DNA from: a virus
IMG/VR virus record: IMGVR_UViG_3300046782_000218
Location: 25,119-89,118 of that record
Length of the DNA: 64,000 bases
Strand: one strand, 5' to 3'
Both the position numbers and the translations under genes were made by a program. Of the stretch, positions 5,865 to 54,355 are shown in pieces; the first letter of the stretch is position 1, and each line of letters begins with the position of its first letter. Under the pieces are notes generated by a model. The model was not told the DNA's origin. It made no database searches and worked only from the letters and a program-made list of their open reading frames with translations.

Positions 5865-7811
5865 TCAGTGTCGGGTGTGATCGATCTCCCAACCGGTGTC
5901 GAGCAGGAACCGCTCTTCCCGGTCGTCCCCCAGCTTACGGCCGGTGAGGCACGCCTCGCGCATCGAGCACATGCGCTTGCAGCGCTCGGCGTCCGGGTGT
6001 CGGGTGTGCTTGTTCGCCTTGGAATGCAGGTACCTGGCCGTTTCCAAGGTCTCCTGCAACAGCGTGCGGACCTCCTGGTCTGTGCGGTTGGTGGGGACTC
6101 GGGCGAACCTACCATCGATCGGCTGCGGCTTAGGCTGGGCACCCGGCTTGAGGCCAGCGGCCTTGTCGGCGTGCCATTGAGCCACGACGTCCGGATGATC
6201 ACCCTTGTTCCGGGTGGTCCGCACGCCGTTGTACAGGCAGGCAAAGATGTTCTTGTCGAGCAGATTCAAGGCACCTTTGTATACGCCGAACTGATCGTGG
6301 AAGTCGAGATCCTGGGTGTCCCCCGGCAAGTTGGCTGCACTGTTGTGGGTCATCACGCCGTTAACCGCAAACAGGCTATCAGCGGCTCGGACTTCCAAGT
6401 CGGTACACGCTCTCTCGCCTATCGGTTCAACACTTACTACCGACAGCCGTTCTTGCAGAGAAGCCTTAGACCGCTTCCACCGACTTAGTTTTTCCTCATG
6501 ATGGTACGGTGCGGGGAAGTCACTCGGAAACCGCATTTTGACTTCCCAGTTGGGGGCACCTACGCCGCCTTGATACTTTGGTCCCTTGTTACACCAAACG
6601 GTTGCCACCCCGCCCAGTGATTCAACCAGCTTTATTACATCATTGGCCAGCTGCTTGGAACCTGTCTGGTACAACGGGACACCCTTACGGTGAGATCCGT
6701 CCGTATCCATCAGTCCACGAAGCAGCTCCAAGCGCTGATTAAATGACCCCAGCAGGTATCCGGACGGGATGAACTTATGGGGGCCATCCGACCCGTGCAG
6801 TCCCAGAGACTTTACCACGTCCCCTAGGGTTCCTGCCAGTCGGTACGTGTCCGCTTTGGTCGGGTGTTTGTACACGCCGGACACGTAGCTGCCCTCGGGC
6901 AAAGCAGCTTTAACCCGAGCCACGGTCCCCGGGTGATTCTTAGTGAATGTTACGGGCAGAGAAGTGAACCCGCCGTCCCCCAACAGCGCTCCTAGCAAGT
7001 AGGGGTCTAGTTGGAAAGTGCGTTCCGGCCGGTCGGACCTCGGAGACTGCAACATCCGGTAGGTCACTCCGGAAGCAACGTTAGCAGCCATTTCGGCTGT
7101 AGTGATCTCTTCACGCACATACCGGCCGGTATGCACTGACCTGTCTACGGGCCACACGTGGTCTCCGGAACACACTACTTCAATCCCGTTTCGCAGAGTG
7201 ACCAGGTAACAGTCAAGCTGAATGCTGCGGCTAGCTGCGACAACCTCAGTCCAGGTCCCATCGGATGACAGCACCAGGTCTCCAGCCGTTACGTCGCCGA
7301 TGCGTGTCTTACCGGAGAACGTCTGTATGGGCGTATCGTCACTCAGGCACTTGTGATCCCACACCCAGCGGCGACCGGTCATCCGATGTTCGGCCACCAG
7401 GTCAACGCCGCCCTTGAGGGTGAATCCGGACAGCCGACCGCTGGCCGTCCTGAGCGGTACTTCGAACCGGTATTCGACCGCGAGGATCTTCCATTCCTCA
7501 TCGACGCCGTAATGTTCGACGTACCCTTCGAACATCCACCTTACCAGATCGATGGTGTCAGGGTCCTTGCCGGTGGCGGCCAGATCGGCGAACACCTGGT
7601 CAACCGACGACATGGCCACGGCCTTGTTGCCCGGAACCCGTAGCAATGATCGGTACCAGGTCTCCAACACGAGGTGGAACATGGACCCCTTGGCGAGAGG
7701 GCCGGTTCCGTCGTTCTCCTTGGTCCACCTTTGGGCGTATGTCCTCCAGTGATAGTGGGGGCACATCCTACCGCGTTGGATCTCGGAGTAGCTAACCGTT
7801 ACTGTCGACAC
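5865..7811 (-). CDS. Cas4/RecB-type PD-(D/E)XK nuclease containing an intein
   Basis: This 648-residue precursor joins two halves of a 312-residue nuclease around an intein at residues 155-490. The first half has GGVDLVAEH, giving the metal-binding aspartate, and ends VWDHK, the D-x-K of the active site. The second half ends CKRMCSMREAC. With Cys17 (RMCPHYHW) these cysteines match the four-Cys 4Fe-4S cluster of Cas4/AddB nucleases. After splicing, DHK joins SAAN. It starts at a GTG after AGGACGAC. A role in end resection with the nearby Sak4-like and DUF669 proteins is inferred. Confidence 0.85.
   Translation of the reverse strand: MSTVTVSYSEIQRGRMCPHYHWRTYAQRWTKENDGTGPLAKGSMFHLVLETWYRSLLRVPGNKAVAMSSVDQVFADLAATGKDPDTIDLVRWMFEGYVEHYGVDEEWKILAVEYRFEVPLRTASGRLSGFTLKGGVDLVAEHRMTGRRWVWDHKCLSDDTPIQTFSGKTRIGDVTAGDLVLSSDGTWTEVVAASRSIQLDCYLVTLRNGIEVVCSGDHVWPVDRSVHTGRYVREEITTAEMAANVASGVTYRMLQSPRSDRPERTFQLDPYLLGALLGDGGFTSLPVTFTKNHPGTVARVKAALPEGSYVSGVYKHPTKADTYRLAGTLGDVVKSLGLHGSDGPHKFIPSGYLLGSFNQRLELLRGLMDTDGSHRKGVPLYQTGSKQLANDVIKLVESLGGVATVWCNKGPKYQGGVGAPNWEVKMRFPSDFPAPYHHEEKLSRWKRSKASLQERLSVVSVEPIGERACTDLEVRAADSLFAVNGVMTHNSAANLPGDTQDLDFHDQFGVYKGALNLLDKNIFACLYNGVRTTRNKGDHPDVVAQWHADKAAGLKPGAQPKPQPIDGRFARVPTNRTDQEVRTLLQETLETARYLHSKANKHTRHPDAERCKRMCSMREACLTGRKLGDDREERFLLDTGWEIDHTRH
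6342..7349 (-). other. Intein with LAGLIDADG homing-endonuclease domain
   Basis: Residues 155-490 of the nuclease begin with CLSDDTPI (splicing block A), include SGDHVWPV (block B) and end SLFAVNGVMTHN, followed by Ser (blocks F and G). These give the nucleophiles Cys1, terminal His-Asn and Ser+1 needed for splicing. The middle has two LAGLIDADG-like motifs, YLLGALLGDGG and LLRGLMDTDGS, so the endonuclease may be active. At 336 residues it is a normal full-length intein. Confidence 0.9.
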
Positions 7812-10917: not shown

Positions 10918-11256
10918 TCAATGTGATACGGTGAACATGACGAGATCGAACCGGCCGATCAGCTTCCACACTTCGTTCAGCTCGCCGAACAGTCCCTGGA
11001 TCTTGATCACCTGGAACGGCTGATTGGCACGGCCTCGGTAGAACCGTACTGTGCCCTCGCCGTACACGTAGTTGGTTTCGATCTCGATGGGGCTGTCAGG
11101 CGCGATGAGCAAGTTGCGCCATCGGCCGTACTTGACCTGTTCGAAATCCACTCCGTTGAGCACGTTGACCAGATCGGTCATATGCTGCTGCACAAGCTTA
11201 CACCGCGACGCGTTGGTGTCGGTGTCCGCTGTTGCTGTCGCCACTCGGTTTCCCAT
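10918..11256 (-). CDS. Hypothetical protein
   Basis: It is about 112 residues from the ATG at 11256 (MGNRVATATADTD). The start is uncertain, because a GTG at 11244 and an ATG at 11271 are alternatives. The protein has VLNGVDFEQVKYGRWRNLL, a strand-rich middle (IEIETNYVYGEG) and a hydrophobic carboxy end (GRFDLVMFTVSH). It overlaps the end of the helix-turn-helix gene upstream and shares its promoter. No family is recognised. Confidence 0.6.
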   Translation of the reverse strand: MGNRVATATADTDTNASRCKLVQQHMTDLVNVLNGVDFEQVKYGRWRNLLIAPDSPIEIETNYVYGEGTVRFYRGRANQPFQVIKIQGLFGELNEVWKLIGRFDLVMFTVSH

Positions 11257-11482
11257 CCTGCTCGAAGACATTGACACGGAGGAAACGACCGAACGCGGTC
11301 TTGCCGGAAACGTACGCTTCGAGAGCTTCCTCCGGGTCGAGTCGGTACTCATGGACGATCCGGCCGAGTAGTTCCCGACCGGGAAGACGGCCCCCGGACT
11401 TGATCCGAGACACCGTGGTGAAATGACATCCCACTCGGGCAGCGAACTGCCCCAGCGTGACCACTTCCCTACTCATTTCCAT
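11198..11482 (-). CDS. Small HTH DNA-binding protein
   Basis: This protein of about 94 residues carries a helix-turn-helix: TLGQFAARVGCHFTTVSRIKSGGRLPGRELLGRIV resembles XRE/Cro-type domains, with FTTVSRIKSG as recognition helix. It is followed by LDPEEALEAYVSGKTAFG and a polar tail. It may regulate nearby lysis or accessory genes. The start is placed at the ATG at 11482 because the upstream ATG overlaps the -10 box. This leaves almost no leader. The ATG at 11476 is also possible. Confidence 0.75.
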   Translation of the reverse strand: MEMSREVVTLGQFAARVGCHFTTVSRIKSGGRLPGRELLGRIVHEYRLDPEEALEAYVSGKTAFGRFLRVNVFEQDGKPSGDSNSGHRHQRVAV

Positions 11483-11489
11483 GACTGCC

Positions 11490-11519
11490 ATGGTACCATA
11501 CCCCTTGTCTACGTAGCAA
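11490..11519 (-). promoter_or_regulatory. Promoter, TTGCTA-18-TACCAT
   Basis: The -10 box TACCAT is at 11490-11495 and the -35 box TTGCTA at 11514-11519. It serves the small HTH gene. Confidence 0.6.
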
Positions 11520-44755: not shown

Positions 44756-45006
44756 TAGGGCACCCACAGTCCTAGCCCGTGTGCGCGGGCTCGCAGTTTC
44801 CATCGGTCTACGGCTTCCAGCACTTTTTCGCTAGCAACTCGTGACTGGTTTAACGCCTCGGCCGTCCGGTGCGCGTCGTCCGTGTTGGCGCATTGTCGAT
44901 GAGCTACCCCGGACAGGTAAAGTTTCCGGTCGTCCATCGCCATCGGGTGGTCGCACACATTGCACGACCTGGCCCGGTTCCGACGACGTTTGTCTTGTTT
45001 GTTCAT
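44755..45006 (-). CDS. Small Cys-containing basic protein
   Basis: This 83-residue protein starts at the ATG overlapping the terminase stop (ATGA). It reads MNKQDKRRRNRARSCNVCDHPMAMDDRKLYLSG ... CANTDDAHRTAEALN and ends GLWVP. The CxxC...HxxC layout suggests one zinc site behind a very basic tail. A DNA-packaging accessory role is possible from its position. Confidence 0.65.
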   Translation of the reverse strand: MNKQDKRRRNRARSCNVCDHPMAMDDRKLYLSGVAHRQCANTDDAHRTAEALNQSRVASEKVLEAVDRWKLRARAHGLGLWVP

Positions 45007-46625
45007 GACTCTCGGTTCCGCTTGCAGTGTGGGCACCGGATCGGGTGATACTCGCCGAGGTAGGTCCGGTTGCAGTGATCGCAGGTGATGACACCGTAGG
45101 CGTCGGCCCATCCGCCGGACTGCGGCCAAAACGCCATAATAACGGCGTCCGCGCGGTCGGTCGATCGGCCAATGCGCTTGCGGATGTCGTCCTTGGACTC
45201 CACCTGGATGTTTCCACCTGACATTATCCGCCAGTGCGGGGCTGTAAGGTCGCCCAGCATGATGTCATCTGGTGGCAGCATGAGGTCATACCCGTTGCCC
45301 GGGTCTAGCATCTCCCGAAGGTTCCACCAGCTAGCTGACCGGCAGTTGACGAACCCCATGTTGCCGGAGCTGTCCCGGCGGTTGGTCCGAGCGGCGGCAT
45401 TGAATGGGTCCACGGACTTGCGCAGCTCACGCAGTCGGTCGACCACGCCAGCACCGATGCCGATCACGTCTACCACAGCCACCATGCCCTCGCCCGACTC
45501 CAGGATTCCGACCGTGCGACCAGTGGTCTGCATAGTGTCTTCCTTGGACGTCTCGCGGATCTCGGCGATGATGTTGTCATGCCGGATGGCCATCATGGTC
45601 TTATCAGTGCCGGAACGAGCCACGTCCACACCGACCACCTGCATGCCCGTTTCCGGCACCGGCCTGCCAGCCTCGTCCCACGCCTTCCATCGGTCGATGG
45701 CCTGCTCGATCCAGGACAGCGGAACAACGCCGTCTTCATCAGACGAGTAGAACTCGCCGAGCACGCGGTTTTGATACGCGGCGGTCTTCTCGCCCCACTG
45801 CTTCTTGCGCTGGTCGGCCCACTGCATCGATACCCGCTTGGCTGCCACTGCCTCAGCCAGGGTGACGTGTCGAGTCCACCAGTCTTCAAGCCCCGAGGCC
45901 TTGCGGTGAATCTCGTAGAACGTGCCGTTGGGCTCACCGGGGGTGCTGGCCGCCAACGCGAACGCCTCGGGCAGACCGCCCTCAGGGTTAGCACCGGAGA
46001 ACGCGCCCTCGGCGGCTTCAAACGTCTTGGCACCGATCGCCTTCGACTCGTCGAAAACGTACAACACGCTGTCCGCGTGGACGCCCTCGATAAGCTCGGA
46101 GTTGTTGGACGCCACCGCGAACGCTGCGCCATGGTTAAGCTTGATGTTCAGGCTGAGCAGCTCGGATCGCTCATCGAGCGGACCACGACCCAGCTCCGAC
46201 CACTTGATGCGCTTGGCCCACTTGTGGATCTCGGGCCACAAGTACTTTTCGAGCTGTCGCCACGCTCCGGCGGTACTGGCCACCTTCCAGTCCACCCCTG
46301 CAGCGTCCCGGGTAACCACGAACCACAGGATGGCTATCGCTGAGGTGGTGGACTTGCCCAGACCGTGAGGCCCCCGAACTGCTACCCGGCGCTTTACCGG
46401 CAGCGCTGACAGGATCTCGTTCTGGTAGGCGGTCAGACCGCCCTCTTTGCCCCAGTCGATGCAGTTTTGGGCGAAACCGGCGGGGTCACTGTAGTACCGG
46501 TTGGCGTCTCCGGTGTACTCGCTAGGCTCCGGTACCGACTGCTCCTCAGCGTCCACCAGCATTTTGCGTAGCTGCTGCAGCTTCTGGAGCTTGGCCATCA
46601 ACAACTGGTCGTTGGTGGGAGCCAT
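45003..46625 (-). CDS. terL: Terminase large subunit with C-terminal zinc ribbon
   Basis: This 540-residue protein has Walker A RGPHGLGKST (residues 84-93) and Walker B VLYVFDES (187-194, Asp191-Glu192). RNase H-type nuclease acidic positions lie at Asp334 (VVGVDVARSG), Asp386 (VVDVIGIG) and Asp492 (RADAVIMAFW). It pumps and cuts the phage DNA through the portal. The last 30 residues (CDHCNRTYLGEYHPIRCPHC) add a zinc ribbon not present in most terminases. It starts at ATG after GAGG. Confidence 0.92.
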   Translation of the reverse strand: MAPTNDQLLMAKLQKLQQLRKMLVDAEEQSVPEPSEYTGDANRYYSDPAGFAQNCIDWGKEGGLTAYQNEILSALPVKRRVAVRGPHGLGKSTTSAIAILWFVVTRDAAGVDWKVASTAGAWRQLEKYLWPEIHKWAKRIKWSELGRGPLDERSELLSLNIKLNHGAAFAVASNNSELIEGVHADSVLYVFDESKAIGAKTFEAAEGAFSGANPEGGLPEAFALAASTPGEPNGTFYEIHRKASGLEDWWTRHVTLAEAVAAKRVSMQWADQRKKQWGEKTAAYQNRVLGEFYSSDEDGVVPLSWIEQAIDRWKAWDEAGRPVPETGMQVVGVDVARSGTDKTMMAIRHDNIIAEIRETSKEDTMQTTGRTVGILESGEGMVAVVDVIGIGAGVVDRLRELRKSVDPFNAAARTNRRDSSGNMGFVNCRSASWWNLREMLDPGNGYDLMLPPDDIMLGDLTAPHWRIMSGGNIQVESKDDIRKRIGRSTDRADAVIMAFWPQSGGWADAYGVITCDHCNRTYLGEYHPIRCPHCKRNRES

Positions 46626-46986: not shown

Positions 46987-47436
46987 TTAGTTGAGAAGGT
47001 CGAAGTCCTGTTCTGCCCGCTTCGACATCTCTTCGGTGAGCTTGGCGATCTGTGCGTCAACGTCATCAACGGTGAGCAGTTGCACCTTGGTGGCGCTGTC
47101 CAGACCGAGCATCTTGGCTCGACGTTCGAGAATCCGGATCGCGATCTCGACCGACCTCGGGTTGCCTCGCTCGATACCGGGCTGCAGAGCCAACAGCATC
47201 TGGTCCATCCGGCGGCATTCGATCTCTCGAAGCACCTCGATGCTGTGATCCGGCGTGGTCAGCTGCTTGGCCAGAGCCTCGTAAATATCGGCACTGGCCG
47301 CCGCTGGACTGACGTAATTCAGCTCAGTCGCTATGTCCTCGGGGGAGTAACCCGCGATTCGCATTTTGACAGCCTTGCCGCGCCTGATCTGCCGTCTCGA
47401 CCGGGTTGACCGAGCTACCTCTATTTCGACGCTCAC
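46987..47436 (-). CDS. terS: Terminase small subunit (probable)
   Basis: This 149-residue protein begins MSVEIEVARSTRSRRQIRRGKAVKMR and has YSPEDIATELNYVSPAAASADIYEAL, a helix-turn-helix of the small terminase/homeodomain type. A long helical region follows (IECRRMDQMLLALQPGIERGNPRSVEIAIRILERRAKMLGL) with the R-x-x-x-L-L-G-L end common in small terminases. It should bind the packaging start site. It starts at GTG after AAGGAGGTAA. Confidence 0.8.
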   Translation of the reverse strand: MSVEIEVARSTRSRRQIRRGKAVKMRIAGYSPEDIATELNYVSPAAASADIYEALAKQLTTPDHSIEVLREIECRRMDQMLLALQPGIERGNPRSVEIAIRILERRAKMLGLDSATKVQLLTVDDVDAQIAKLTEEMSKRAEQDFDLLN

Positions 47437-47657
47437 GCTGGGGTTACCTCCTTAAGGACCTTGTTGTGCGGAAGGGGTGGCGCAACGGCCGGACCGTCCT
47501 CGGTCTTGGCCGGAAGCTCCATTAGGTTGTACCGAGTGCCTTGCCGGGTGGCGTGTCTGGTTATCCGTCCCTCGCTGGCCCAACGCCAGATAGTTCCTTG
47601 CGGGCGACCAGTCCAGACCGAAGCCTCGACCGAAGTAACCAAGACAGCGTCAGCCAC
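47433..47657 (-). CDS. Small winged-helix/MerR-like DNA-binding protein
   Basis: This 74-residue protein reads MADAVLVTSVEASVWTGRPQGTIWRWASEGRITRHATRQGTRYNLMEL, the pattern of excisionase/MerR-like helix-turn-helix domains (GTIWRW recognition helix, GRI wing). It is the first gene of the structural operon behind the promoter at 47750-47779. It may help packaging-site recognition or regulate the operon. Confidence 0.75.
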   Translation of the reverse strand: MADAVLVTSVEASVWTGRPQGTIWRWASEGRITRHATRQGTRYNLMELPAKTEDGPAVAPPLPHNKVLKEVTPA

Positions 47658-47749
47658 GGCAACCCCCGAACATAGCTTGGGCCCCCCTGTTCCGCAGTTT
47701 AATCAAGCGGAAAAGAGAGGCCCAGAGTGCTGTGTACCCATCCAGTAGA

Positions 47750-47779
47750 ACTATAGCCTTCGGAGCAAGCCGAACACAA
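47750..47779 (-). promoter_or_regulatory. Structural-operon promoter, TTGTGT-18-TATAGT
   Basis: The -10 box TATAGT is at 47750-47755 and the -35 box TTGTGT at 47774-47779. It reads left into the HTH, terminase and head genes. The -35 boxes of this and the divergent promoter are only five bases apart. Confidence 0.7.
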
Positions 47780-47784
47780 GATTA

Positions 47785-47813
47785 TTGCGTTCGTGCGAAT
47801 GACATGGTAAACT
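47785..47813 (+). promoter_or_regulatory. Divergent promoter, TTGCGT-17-TAAACT, leaderless
   Basis: The -35 box is at 47785-47790 and the -10 box at 47808-47813. The ATG of the HTH-HNH gene begins six bases after the -10 box, so the transcript should start at the codon itself. Confidence 0.7.
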
Positions 47814-47819
47814 GGTACC

Positions 47820-48641
47820 ATGGCTCATGTGCATGTGGTTACGATCAACGTTCCCGAATTCGATCGCAGGGTAAAAGAGGCCGGACTAAGCCTTAATAAG
47901 CTTGCGGTAGCGGCCGGAATCAACCGGACCACTTTGGCTAGGTGGCGCAACGCAGGGTACCGGCCTAACCTGGACACTCTGTCCCGGGTTATCGACATCC
48001 TGGGCTGCTCTCTGGACGACGTCACCTCGTCAGACGTCGTGACGGTTCCCGACCGGCAGCCGCCCAAGTCCACAGGCAACTCGATGCAGCCGCCACAGAA
48101 TCACGCTGTTCTGCGAGCCATGGCCCTGATGAAATACGGGCTCGAATGCGCGTGCTGCGGTGAACCCGAGTACATTTTCCTTACCATAGACCACATCGTG
48201 CCAGGCAAACCGGACACGGGTCCCCGTACCAGGCTGTACCGCTGGCTGAAAGTGAACGGGTACCCTGCGGGGTTCCAGACGTTGTGTTTCAATTGCAACA
48301 CGGCCAAGGGCGTTAAGAGGCACTGTCCCCACCGATACCGAGAGCCGATGTCCGACGCGGCTCGACGTACCAGGGGCCTCAAGATAGACGCGCTGATGGC
48401 GTACGGCAGTAAGGTATGCGTCTGCTGCGGGGAGGCCGGTCTTGAGTTCCTGGCGTTGGACCACGTCAACGGGGGTGGTAAAGAACACCGAGCCACCCTG
48501 ACTGGTGACGGTAAGCTTGGCGGAAACGCCTTTTACAGAGCGCTAAAGAAGTTGGGCTGGCCCAACGATCCGCCGTTGCGAGTGCTGTGCCACAACTGCA
48601 ACCACGCGGTTAGTATGGGTGCCTGTCCCCACACTTGGTAA
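47820..48641 (+). CDS. XRE-type HTH fused to two tandem HNH-like domains
   Basis: This 273-residue protein has an XRE helix-turn-helix (residues 14-70: LSLNKLAVAAGINRTTLARWRNAG). Two similar zinc-HNH-like modules follow. The first has CACC (110-113), DH (124-125), CFNC (156-159) and a CPH end. The second has CVCC (200-203), DH (214-215), CHNC (257-260) and a CPH end. The usual final HNH histidine is not in its standard place, so nuclease activity is uncertain. It may act as a DNA-binding regulator or site-specific nuclease. Confidence 0.8.
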   Translation: MAHVHVVTINVPEFDRRVKEAGLSLNKLAVAAGINRTTLARWRNAGYRPNLDTLSRVIDILGCSLDDVTSSDVVTVPDRQPPKSTGNSMQPPQNHAVLRAMALMKYGLECACCGEPEYIFLTIDHIVPGKPDTGPRTRLYRWLKVNGYPAGFQTLCFNCNTAKGVKRHCPHRYREPMSDAARRTRGLKIDALMAYGSKVCVCCGEAGLEFLALDHVNGGGKEHRATLTGDGKLGGNAFYRALKKLGWPNDPPLRVLCHNCNHAVSMGACPHTW

Positions 48642-48649
48642 AACAGTGA

Positions 48650-48671
48650 GCCCCCGGGTCTCCCCGGGGGC
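48650..48671. terminator. Bidirectional terminator
   Basis: GCCCCCGGG pairs with CCCGGGGGC (48650-48658 and 48663-48671). It is followed by GTCTTGT on the plus strand and TGTTTTACC on the minus strand. It lies between two convergent genes. Confidence 0.75.
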
Positions 48672-50497: not shown

Positions 50498-50914
50498 TTA
50501 CCATCCCGCGCTGGCTTCGCGGTCCTGAATCTTGCGTCGTTCAGCCGCGCGAAATTCCTCGTCGGACCTACGCGCAGCTTCGGCTAGCTCGTTGCTGGCC
50601 TTGGGCTCACGAGCTTTACCCAGATCGTCCAGGCTTCGGGCAGTCCTGCGGGCGACCTCGCGGTCTATTCCGTCAGTGACTTTCACACTGTACCCGAGAT
50701 CTGCAGCGTGGCTGACCGCGTCAGCCGTTACACTAGTATCAGCCAACTGTCGGATTACCTGCTCGCCGTCAGCACCGGCCTGAATCAGGAAGGACTTCAC
50801 CTTGGCGTCATGCCCTGGCGCAAACCGCCCCGTAGTGGTTTGGGTGCAGCCGGTGGTCTTGCCAGACGCTGTCCGGAACTCGCTGCACGTGCACGGTTGG
50901 GGCTGCTTGGCCAT
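50498..50914 (-). CDS. PGHDA-motif protein (paralogue 2)
   Basis: This 138-residue protein begins MAKQPQPCTCSEFRTASGKTTGCTQTTTGRFAPGHDAKVKSFLIQAG, then a variable region and a charged helical tail (EEFRAAERRKIQDREASAGW). CTC...C...FAPGHDAK matches the motif of the genes at 7875, 53173 and 53819. The start follows AGGAGGACTCC. It may bind zinc and nucleic acid. The function is unknown. Confidence 0.75.
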   Translation of the reverse strand: MAKQPQPCTCSEFRTASGKTTGCTQTTTGRFAPGHDAKVKSFLIQAGADGEQVIRQLADTSVTADAVSHAADLGYSVKVTDGIDREVARRTARSLDDLGKAREPKASNELAEAARRSDEEFRAAERRKIQDREASAGW

Positions 50915-53172: not shown

Positions 53173-53679
53173 TCAGGCCAGGGTGAACGAGGTCACCGTC
53201 TGGGTGTTGCCCTTCTTGTCGGTGTAGGTGAACTGCGGGCCCCACTCGGGCGAGTCGGTGACGGTGCCTTCGTAGGTCCAGCGACCGACCTTGGCGGTAA
53301 CTACCGGCTTGGCCTCCACGGGCTTCCGTGCCATCTTCGCGGCCTTCGCCTGCCGCTTCGCGACATCCGCGTCCACCATGGCGTCGAAGTCGCTCGTGAC
53401 CGCCTTCGCGGCCTTCTTGGCGGTACCCCGCGCGATCCCGTCCGTGACCTTGCCCAGGAACCCGAACCGGCTGGCGGTGCTCTCGGGGGTGTGCTCACCC
53501 GTGATGCCATCAGAGATCTTGTGACCCGCGACACCCGCCCGGATCAGCAGGCCCTTGAGCTTGGCATCGTGTCCGGGGGCGAAAAGGTTCTTGGTGTCCG
53601 AGAAGCAGCCGGTGTTCTCGCCGGTCGCGATGTTGGTGAACGCGGAGCAGATGCAGGGCTTGTTGGCGAGGTTCGTCAT
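53173..53679 (-). CDS. PGHDA-motif protein (paralogue 3)
   Basis: This 168-residue protein begins MTNLANKPCICSAFTNIATGENTGCFSDTKNLFAPGHDAKLKGLLIRAGVAGHKI and ends VGRWTYEGTVTDSPEWGPQFTYTDKKGNTQTVTSF. Both ends match paralogue 4 (53819-54355). The end VGRW-Y-G ... YTDKKGNTQ is a second shared domain. The start at 53679 follows AAGGAGC; a longer frame includes the promoter. The family has no known biochemical function. Confidence 0.8.
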   Translation of the reverse strand: MTNLANKPCICSAFTNIATGENTGCFSDTKNLFAPGHDAKLKGLLIRAGVAGHKISDGITGEHTPESTASRFGFLGKVTDGIARGTAKKAAKAVTSDFDAMVDADVAKRQAKAAKMARKPVEAKPVVTAKVGRWTYEGTVTDSPEWGPQFTYTDKKGNTQTVTSFTLA

Positions 53680-53818: not shown

Positions 53819-54355
53819 TCAGATCTGCACGAACTTCATGGTGTCCTGCGTGTTGCCCTTCTTGTCCGTGTACCGGAAGACCGGCTGCCCGTCGCCAGCG
53901 GCGAGGATGACGCCGAAGTATTCCCAACGCCCGACCTTGGCCTTCACGACGAGGGCGTCAGCCTTCGCGGCCTCGTCCTCGGACTTGTTGGCGACCAGGC
54001 CCGCACCCTCGGCCAGCTTGCGCTCGGCGGTCTTCGCGGCCTTCTTGGTGGCCTTGGCCTGCGCCTTCTCGATGCCCCGACGGATGCCGTCCGCCACCAT
54101 GTGGCCGAACCCGAAGAGGCTGGCGATGTATTCGCAGCTCACGACCTCGCCGGACGGCATCCGGACCACGTCACCGGCCAGGCCGCGCCGGATCAGCTCG
54201 CCCTTGAGACGGGCGTCGTGGCCCGGGGCGAAAGTCCGCTTGGTGGTGGCGGTGCAGACCGTCTTGGTGTCCTCGCCGAAGTTGGTGAAGGTGACGCCGC
54301 CGCAGGCGCAAGCGTGGGTCTCGGTGGCCTTCGCGTTCTTCGTGGTGTTCGTCAT
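53819..54355 (-). CDS. PGHDA-motif protein (paralogue 4)
   Basis: This 178-residue protein begins MTNTTKNAKATETHACACGGVTFTNFGEDTKTVCTATTKRTFAPGHDARLKGELIRRG and has MPSGEVVSCEYIASLFGFGHMV, a basic middle (KATKKAAKTAERK) and an end VGRWEYFGVILAAGDGQPVFRYTDKKGNTQ shared with paralogue 3. It starts after AAGGAGC. The tandem pair suggests a duplication. Zinc binding by the CxC cluster and His is inferred. Confidence 0.8.
   Translation of the reverse strand: MTNTTKNAKATETHACACGGVTFTNFGEDTKTVCTATTKRTFAPGHDARLKGELIRRGLAGDVVRMPSGEVVSCEYIASLFGFGHMVADGIRRGIEKAQAKATKKAAKTAERKLAEGAGLVANKSEDEAAKADALVVKAKVGRWEYFGVILAAGDGQPVFRYTDKKGNTQDTMKFVQI

Follow-up and report, generated by a model that had tools for sequence, protein, structure and literature searches.

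Locus organisation and genome setting

We analysed a 64,000-nt window of DNA (positions 25119-89118 of an 89,118-base record) from a tailed, actinobacteriophage-like phage of soil type, in which a gene encoding an XRE domain and two HNH domains diverges from the terminase/structural operon (Table 1). Gene calling placed nearly all genes of the 89-kb record on the minus strand. The earlier note had singled out the XRE-HNH-HNH gene as the only large one on the plus strand, and codon-usage gene calling agrees, since it is the sole plus-strand gene in the record longer than 100 aa and the other plus-strand calls span 45-90 aa. The PHROG 645 name given to the 149-aa protein encoded upstream of the large terminase may be wrong, as the position of its gene favours a small terminase.

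Table 1. Features of the XRE-HNH-HNH locus (window coordinates)
Feature	Position	Strand	Details
Terminase large subunit	45003..46625	-	PHROG 2, 1.1e-29
149-aa protein, likely small terminase	46987..47436	-	PHROG 645 ('Rnase E'); terminase role inferred
74-aa small HTH protein (excisionase/HTH_17-like), first structural-operon gene	47433..47657	-	homologues upstream of terminase genes in Keanu and Galactica
Stem-loop in structural-operon 5' leader	47678..47724	-	z -2.5; Keanu and Galactica have far longer stem-loops here
Putative terminase/structural-operon promoter, TTGTGT-18-TATAGT	47750..47779	-	8/12 match
Dyad TTCGG-N6-CCGAA, weak operator candidate	47759..47774		minus-promoter spacer
Putative XRE-HNH-HNH promoter, TTGCGT-17-TAAACT	47785..47813	+	7/12 match
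Dyad TTCG-TG-CGAA, weak operator candidate	47790..47799		plus-promoter spacer
XRE-HNH-HNH gene, 273 aa	47820..48641	+	ATG start, probably leaderless, no Shine-Dalgarno
Cro/C1-type (XRE) helix-turn-helix, residues 19-67	47874..48020	+	Pfam HTH_3, E 8.7e-10, above curated cut-off
Disordered Pro/Ser/Gln-rich linker, residues 68-94	48021..48101	+	pLDDT <50 over residues 67-92
HNH copy 1, residues 95-171	48102..48332	+	C110, C113, D124, H125, C156, C159, N160
HNH copy 2, residues 179-271	48354..48632	+	C200, C203, D214, H215, C257, C260, N261; canonical HR loop
Terminator-like GC-rich stem	48650..48671		between convergent ends of the XRE-HNH-HNH gene and the upstream operon

The replication and accessory genes are like those of the Streptomyces phages Keanu and Galactica (Hiyaavirus), whereas the large terminase is of another, widespread group, with 212 viral relatives found. 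The sole megablast match was a stretch of 470 bp, to Keanu. Elsewhere in the record, outside the window, a PurA-like protein (G000:C1:12050-13153, minus strand) has GSEGKG in place of the PurA motif GDEGKG, and a dUTPase-like protein (G000:C1:10313-11236, minus strand) is, at 307 aa, as long as the DmtZ-DutZ of Wayne. From these PurZ-like and DmtZ-DutZ-like genes, the phage DNA may contain 2-aminoadenine. A second, small XRE-like protein (97 aa; window 11198-11491, minus strand) falls below the Pfam cut-off, and related small paralogues lie at 50498-50914, 53173-53679 and 53819-54355 (all minus strand), with several matching copies in Keanu and Galactica.

The equivalent locus in related phages

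The records of Keanu and Galactica both end with a gene for a membrane protein, a strongly structured leader and a small HTH gene, after which come the terminase genes (in Keanu, across the record start). Neither phage has an HNH gene between the leader/small HTH gene and the terminase side, and their HNH relatives, Keanu gp110 and Galactica gp103, are found at other genome positions. The pattern of an optional gene absent from the equivalent locus, as for homing genes, is therefore seen in these two phages, both of which are distant relatives; we found no empty-site/filled-site pair among close relatives, and a scan of IMG/VR with the FtsK-like neighbour returned no near relative, whether carrying or lacking the gene here. 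The window phage has the gene outside the leader, flanked by the terminator-like stem and the structural promoter, a position consistent with an optional gene having been inserted at the edge of an operon. The leader stem-loop, for which z is -8.8 in Keanu (L088 41780-41855) and -6.5 in Galactica (L089 30900-30970), might act as a site of processing or of packaging initiation, or as a stabilising leader.

Domain organisation of the XRE-HNH-HNH protein

The fusion proposed in the earlier note, of a repressor-type helix-turn-helix to two related zinc-HNH-like domains, was borne out by Pfam, PHROG and self-alignment. In an AlphaFold2 model of the protein (mean pLDDT 71, built from 14 sequences), the XRE part has helices at residues 11-20, 25-31, 36-44 and 51-60, with low confidence in this region, and its resemblance to SinR, C.EcoT38IS and 434 Cro in a fold search came with non-significant E-values. 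While the protein has the XRE domain of a C1-type repressor, its C-terminus consists of the two HNH domains in place of a dimerisation/peptidase domain, and we found no lysogeny module with an integrase in the 89-kb record, which is possibly incomplete (no PF00589 or PF00239 match). The lack of a tyrosine or serine integrase in the record disfavours a lysogeny repressor and weakens the previously suggested switch, if taken as one of lysogeny. For an immunity factor, also suggested, nothing positive was found.

Alignment of the two HNH copies with each other gave 38% identity (E 2e-12), with C-x2-C / DH / C-x2-C-N in each. The PHROG matches of the protein include 'HNH endonuclease' and 'endonuclease VII', of which PHROG 2255 ('HNH endonuclease') matched in two stretches at 1.7e-14; the Pfam models HNH (17.5 bits vs 21.4) and Endonuclease_7 (7.6 vs 23.6) remained below cut-off. 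Both copies carry the features of an Endo VII-like HNH (His-Me finger) domain, namely the zinc CxxC pair, the DH and an N after the second CxxC, and these conserved zinc/catalytic positions are arranged as in Endo VII. All of the residues listed for each copy in Table 1 are the same in every one of 14 aligned tandem HNH-HNH proteins, comprising the window protein and 13 from other viral contigs. Copy 1 may be weaker, inactive or non-cutting, as its loop after the DH is shortened and without the HR that is present in copy 2 and in 61 of 112 domain units. The two copies are not each other's nearest relatives (partner rank 65) on a rough tree of the 112 units, which is weak and drawn from a short alignment, and we therefore rejected a recent duplication; an old duplication, or the joining of two HNH domains, appears likelier. 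The HNH part had no sequence match among solved structures, and searching the model against the PDB gave no significant fold match. In BFVD, the model matched viral HNH proteins, the best at 9e-9.

The XRE fusion among viral and plasmid relatives

A repressor-nuclease fusion of this form had been called unusual, in keeping with our scans: the window protein was the only one of 94 aligned relatives with an HTH_3 match, and no fused relative was found in phages, plasmids or IMG/VR. Instead, a CxxC...CxxC ribbon precedes the HNH in 46 of 99 proteins. When the XRE part alone was used as query, phage records returned ordinary repressor HTHs only and IMG/VR returned nothing, while the plasmid search produced one single-HNH match and no XRE fusion. 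We found no described XRE-HNH-HNH protein in the literature. The relative scans were pattern-based and miss distant relatives, so 'unique' here means unique within the viral and plasmid data searched. On these sequence comparisons the XRE-HNH-HNH fusion is a singleton in the phages, plasmids and IMG/VR data covered.

So far, then, it is the XRE fusion that is new in the data searched; the tandem HNH-HNH arrangement is not unique, being already present in 13 other viral proteins. In these (e.g. L093, L094, L097 and L101) the same nuclease family is duplicated with its residues conserved, but their N-termini are Cys-rich or Lys-rich where the window protein has the XRE domain. The single-HNH genes of Hiyaavirus and Korravirus phages (Keanu gp110, Galactica gp103 and Pterodactyl gp46) also belong to this nuclease family, but encode one HNH and no XRE, and occupy different genome positions.

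The intergenic region and possible regulation

The -35-like hexamers of the two divergent genes, TTGTGT (47779-47774, minus strand) and TTGCGT (47785-47790, plus strand), are separated by five bases, exactly as the earlier note had claimed. While the geometry of a divergent promoter pair thus held, promoter strength did not, the match scores being at chance level: equal or better matches occur in the genome 12.7 (7/12) and 1.9 (8/12) times per kb per strand. The best sigma-70-like match in the region is in fact a minus-strand TTACCA-18-AATAAT (47810-47781, 9/12) that overlaps the plus promoter. Both putative promoters are supported by context, namely their divergent orientation, an AT-rich dip at 47730-47819 (48% GC vs about 62%) and, for the plus one, a -10 box that lies six bases upstream of the ATG of the XRE-HNH-HNH gene. 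Consistent with this spacing and the lack of a Shine-Dalgarno sequence, the mRNA is probably leaderless. Some actinobacteriophage repressors also have leaderless starts.

The two dyads share TTCG/CGAA arms, and neither occurs elsewhere in the 89 kb. Because equally good arm-sharing pairs turn up in 16% of genome windows of equal length and in 4% of Markov-generated sequences, we consider the dyads candidate operators only, no better than chance. Control of both promoters by one bound protein is geometrically possible, on weak promoter matches and chance-level dyads, and control of the structural promoter by the XRE-HNH-HNH protein is unsupported.

If the protein were a true regulator, its XRE domain would bind the intergenic region and control its own and the structural-operon promoters as an early/late or lysis timing switch, and the HNH domains would serve as a dimerisation or DNA-bending scaffold, or provide a second activity. 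The closely spaced divergent layout, the complete XRE domain with its score exceeding the Pfam cut-off, the presence of one dyad in each promoter spacer and nowhere else, and the leaderless start are all in line with such a role. However, no integrase was found, the structural operon and its leader occur in Keanu and Galactica with no such gene, the dyads and promoter matches are at chance level, and the catalytic residues are kept in both HNH copies, which is unexpected for a mere scaffold. We therefore think it unlikely that the protein is primarily a regulator.

Other homing-type elements in the same phage

A single-HNH relative of the same family (G000:C1:17363-17956, minus strand), outside the window, adjoins the DNA polymerase I gene and has the lowest codon adaptation of 74 genes. 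The XRE-HNH-HNH gene ranks 9th lowest, a property that is also common to several ordinary genes of the phage. Within the window, a Cas4-like PD-(D/E)XK exonuclease (5865-7811, minus strand), both flanks of which are about 45% identical to Keanu gp40, is interrupted exactly at its DHK motif by a LAGLIDADG_3 insert of roughly 330 aa. The insert has intein-like ends (C...VMTHN/S) and is an apparent intein. As the phage carries several homing-type elements, homing is the leading explanation for the XRE-HNH-HNH gene.

Discussion

Overall, we favour, at somewhat better than even confidence, the view that the XRE-HNH-HNH gene encodes a site-specific endonuclease of the free-standing homing type, in which an XRE domain does the targeting and the HNH domains are chained. 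Cutting, site-specificity and homing are what we infer for the protein; its domain make-up, its intact HNH residues, the absence of the gene from the syntenic spot in two relatives and the other homing-type elements are observed directly. The earlier note had raised a domesticated homing enzyme. The homing-type part of that suggestion stands, and the domesticated part gives way to a mobile element, which fits better because the gene is absent from the Keanu/Galactica syntenic spot and its single-HNH relatives lie in variable places.

In the mechanism that we propose, the gene would have entered where the upstream operon meets the structural operon. Its XRE domain, replacing the N-terminal parts of relatives (often a Cys ribbon), would target a DNA site, and the two Endo VII-like HNH domains would cut there, plausibly one strand each. 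A single chain could then break both strands of a co-infecting genome without the gene, and repair would copy the gene across. More speculatively, the XRE domain may bind between the divergent promoters and repress its own transcription as I-TevI does, with control of the structural promoter as a by-product.

There is precedent for parts of this mechanism. F-CphI, from cyanophage S-PM2, has been proven to be a homing endonuclease and uses an Endo VII motif, in which D101 and H102 are essential for cleavage (PMC6083498). Like the window protein, F-CphI is phage-encoded and free-standing, with the Endo VII-like nuclease motif C-terminal to another domain (PMC6083498), but by its description it has one nuclease domain and no XRE, as opposed to two nuclease domains and an XRE. 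I-TevI of phage T4 is both an endonuclease and a transcriptional autorepressor with an HTH module; it binds an operator that overlaps its own promoter as well as its homing site, and its cutting is about 100-fold less efficient at the operator (PMC2988022). The likeness to I-TevI is one of working, in that both are modular endonucleases with an HTH module and a DNA-binding part joined to the nuclease by a linker. I-TevI differs in being an intron-encoded GIY-YIG nuclease with the domain order reversed, and its autorepression is demonstrated where that of the window protein is conjectured. Given the I-TevI precedent, autorepression by the XRE-HNH-HNH protein is plausible; structural-operon control is an added guess. 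The XRE domain might even read one kind of sequence in two settings, serving between the divergent promoters as an operator at which the protein represses its own gene and the structural operon but does not cut, and in the genomes of rivals as a cleavage site, an extension that we regard as very doubtful.

Clearly less probable than a regulator is a weapon against competing DNA, in which sequence-directed cutting would degrade host DNA or exclude co-infecting phages without homing, and 2-aminoadenine, if present in the DNA of the phage itself, may protect that DNA. Lactococcal phage HNH proteins have exclusion activity when expressed (PMC12724721), and the PurZ-like and DmtZ-DutZ-like genes suggest that phage and host DNA may differ, but nothing specific points to this role and the PADLOC matches are weak and to HTH parts only. 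Slightly less probable still is a nuclease accessory to packaging, of the kind of HK97 gp74 or GVE2 HNHE, working with the neighbouring terminase: terminase-linked HNH proteins form a known class (PMC5304195), a few genes separate this gene from that of the large terminase, and an HNH relative, AnClar gp1, is likewise encoded a few genes from its own terminase, but the XRE-HNH-HNH gene is on the opposite strand and transcribed away from the terminase genes rather than co-directional with them, the protein has no sequence match to any solved HNH packaging structure, Keanu and Galactica have no such gene at the terminase locus, and among the large-terminase relatives fetched an HNH ORF of the general pattern occurs only in L023 and tblastn gave no match to the gene.

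Returning to the homing-type endonuclease, genome-invading endonucleases need a DNA-reading part, a role into which, as the window protein suggests, an ordinary Cro/C1 repressor domain can be drawn. The protein also suggests that, by chaining HNH domains, one polypeptide might cut both strands. If the dual reading of operator and cut site were true, the protein would be a Cro/C1-type counterpart of the dual role of I-TevI, coupling a homing element to late-gene timing in a phage possibly with 2-aminoadenine DNA. Binding between the divergent promoters as well, if it occurs, would make the protein an example of how a selfish nuclease becomes wired into late-gene control.
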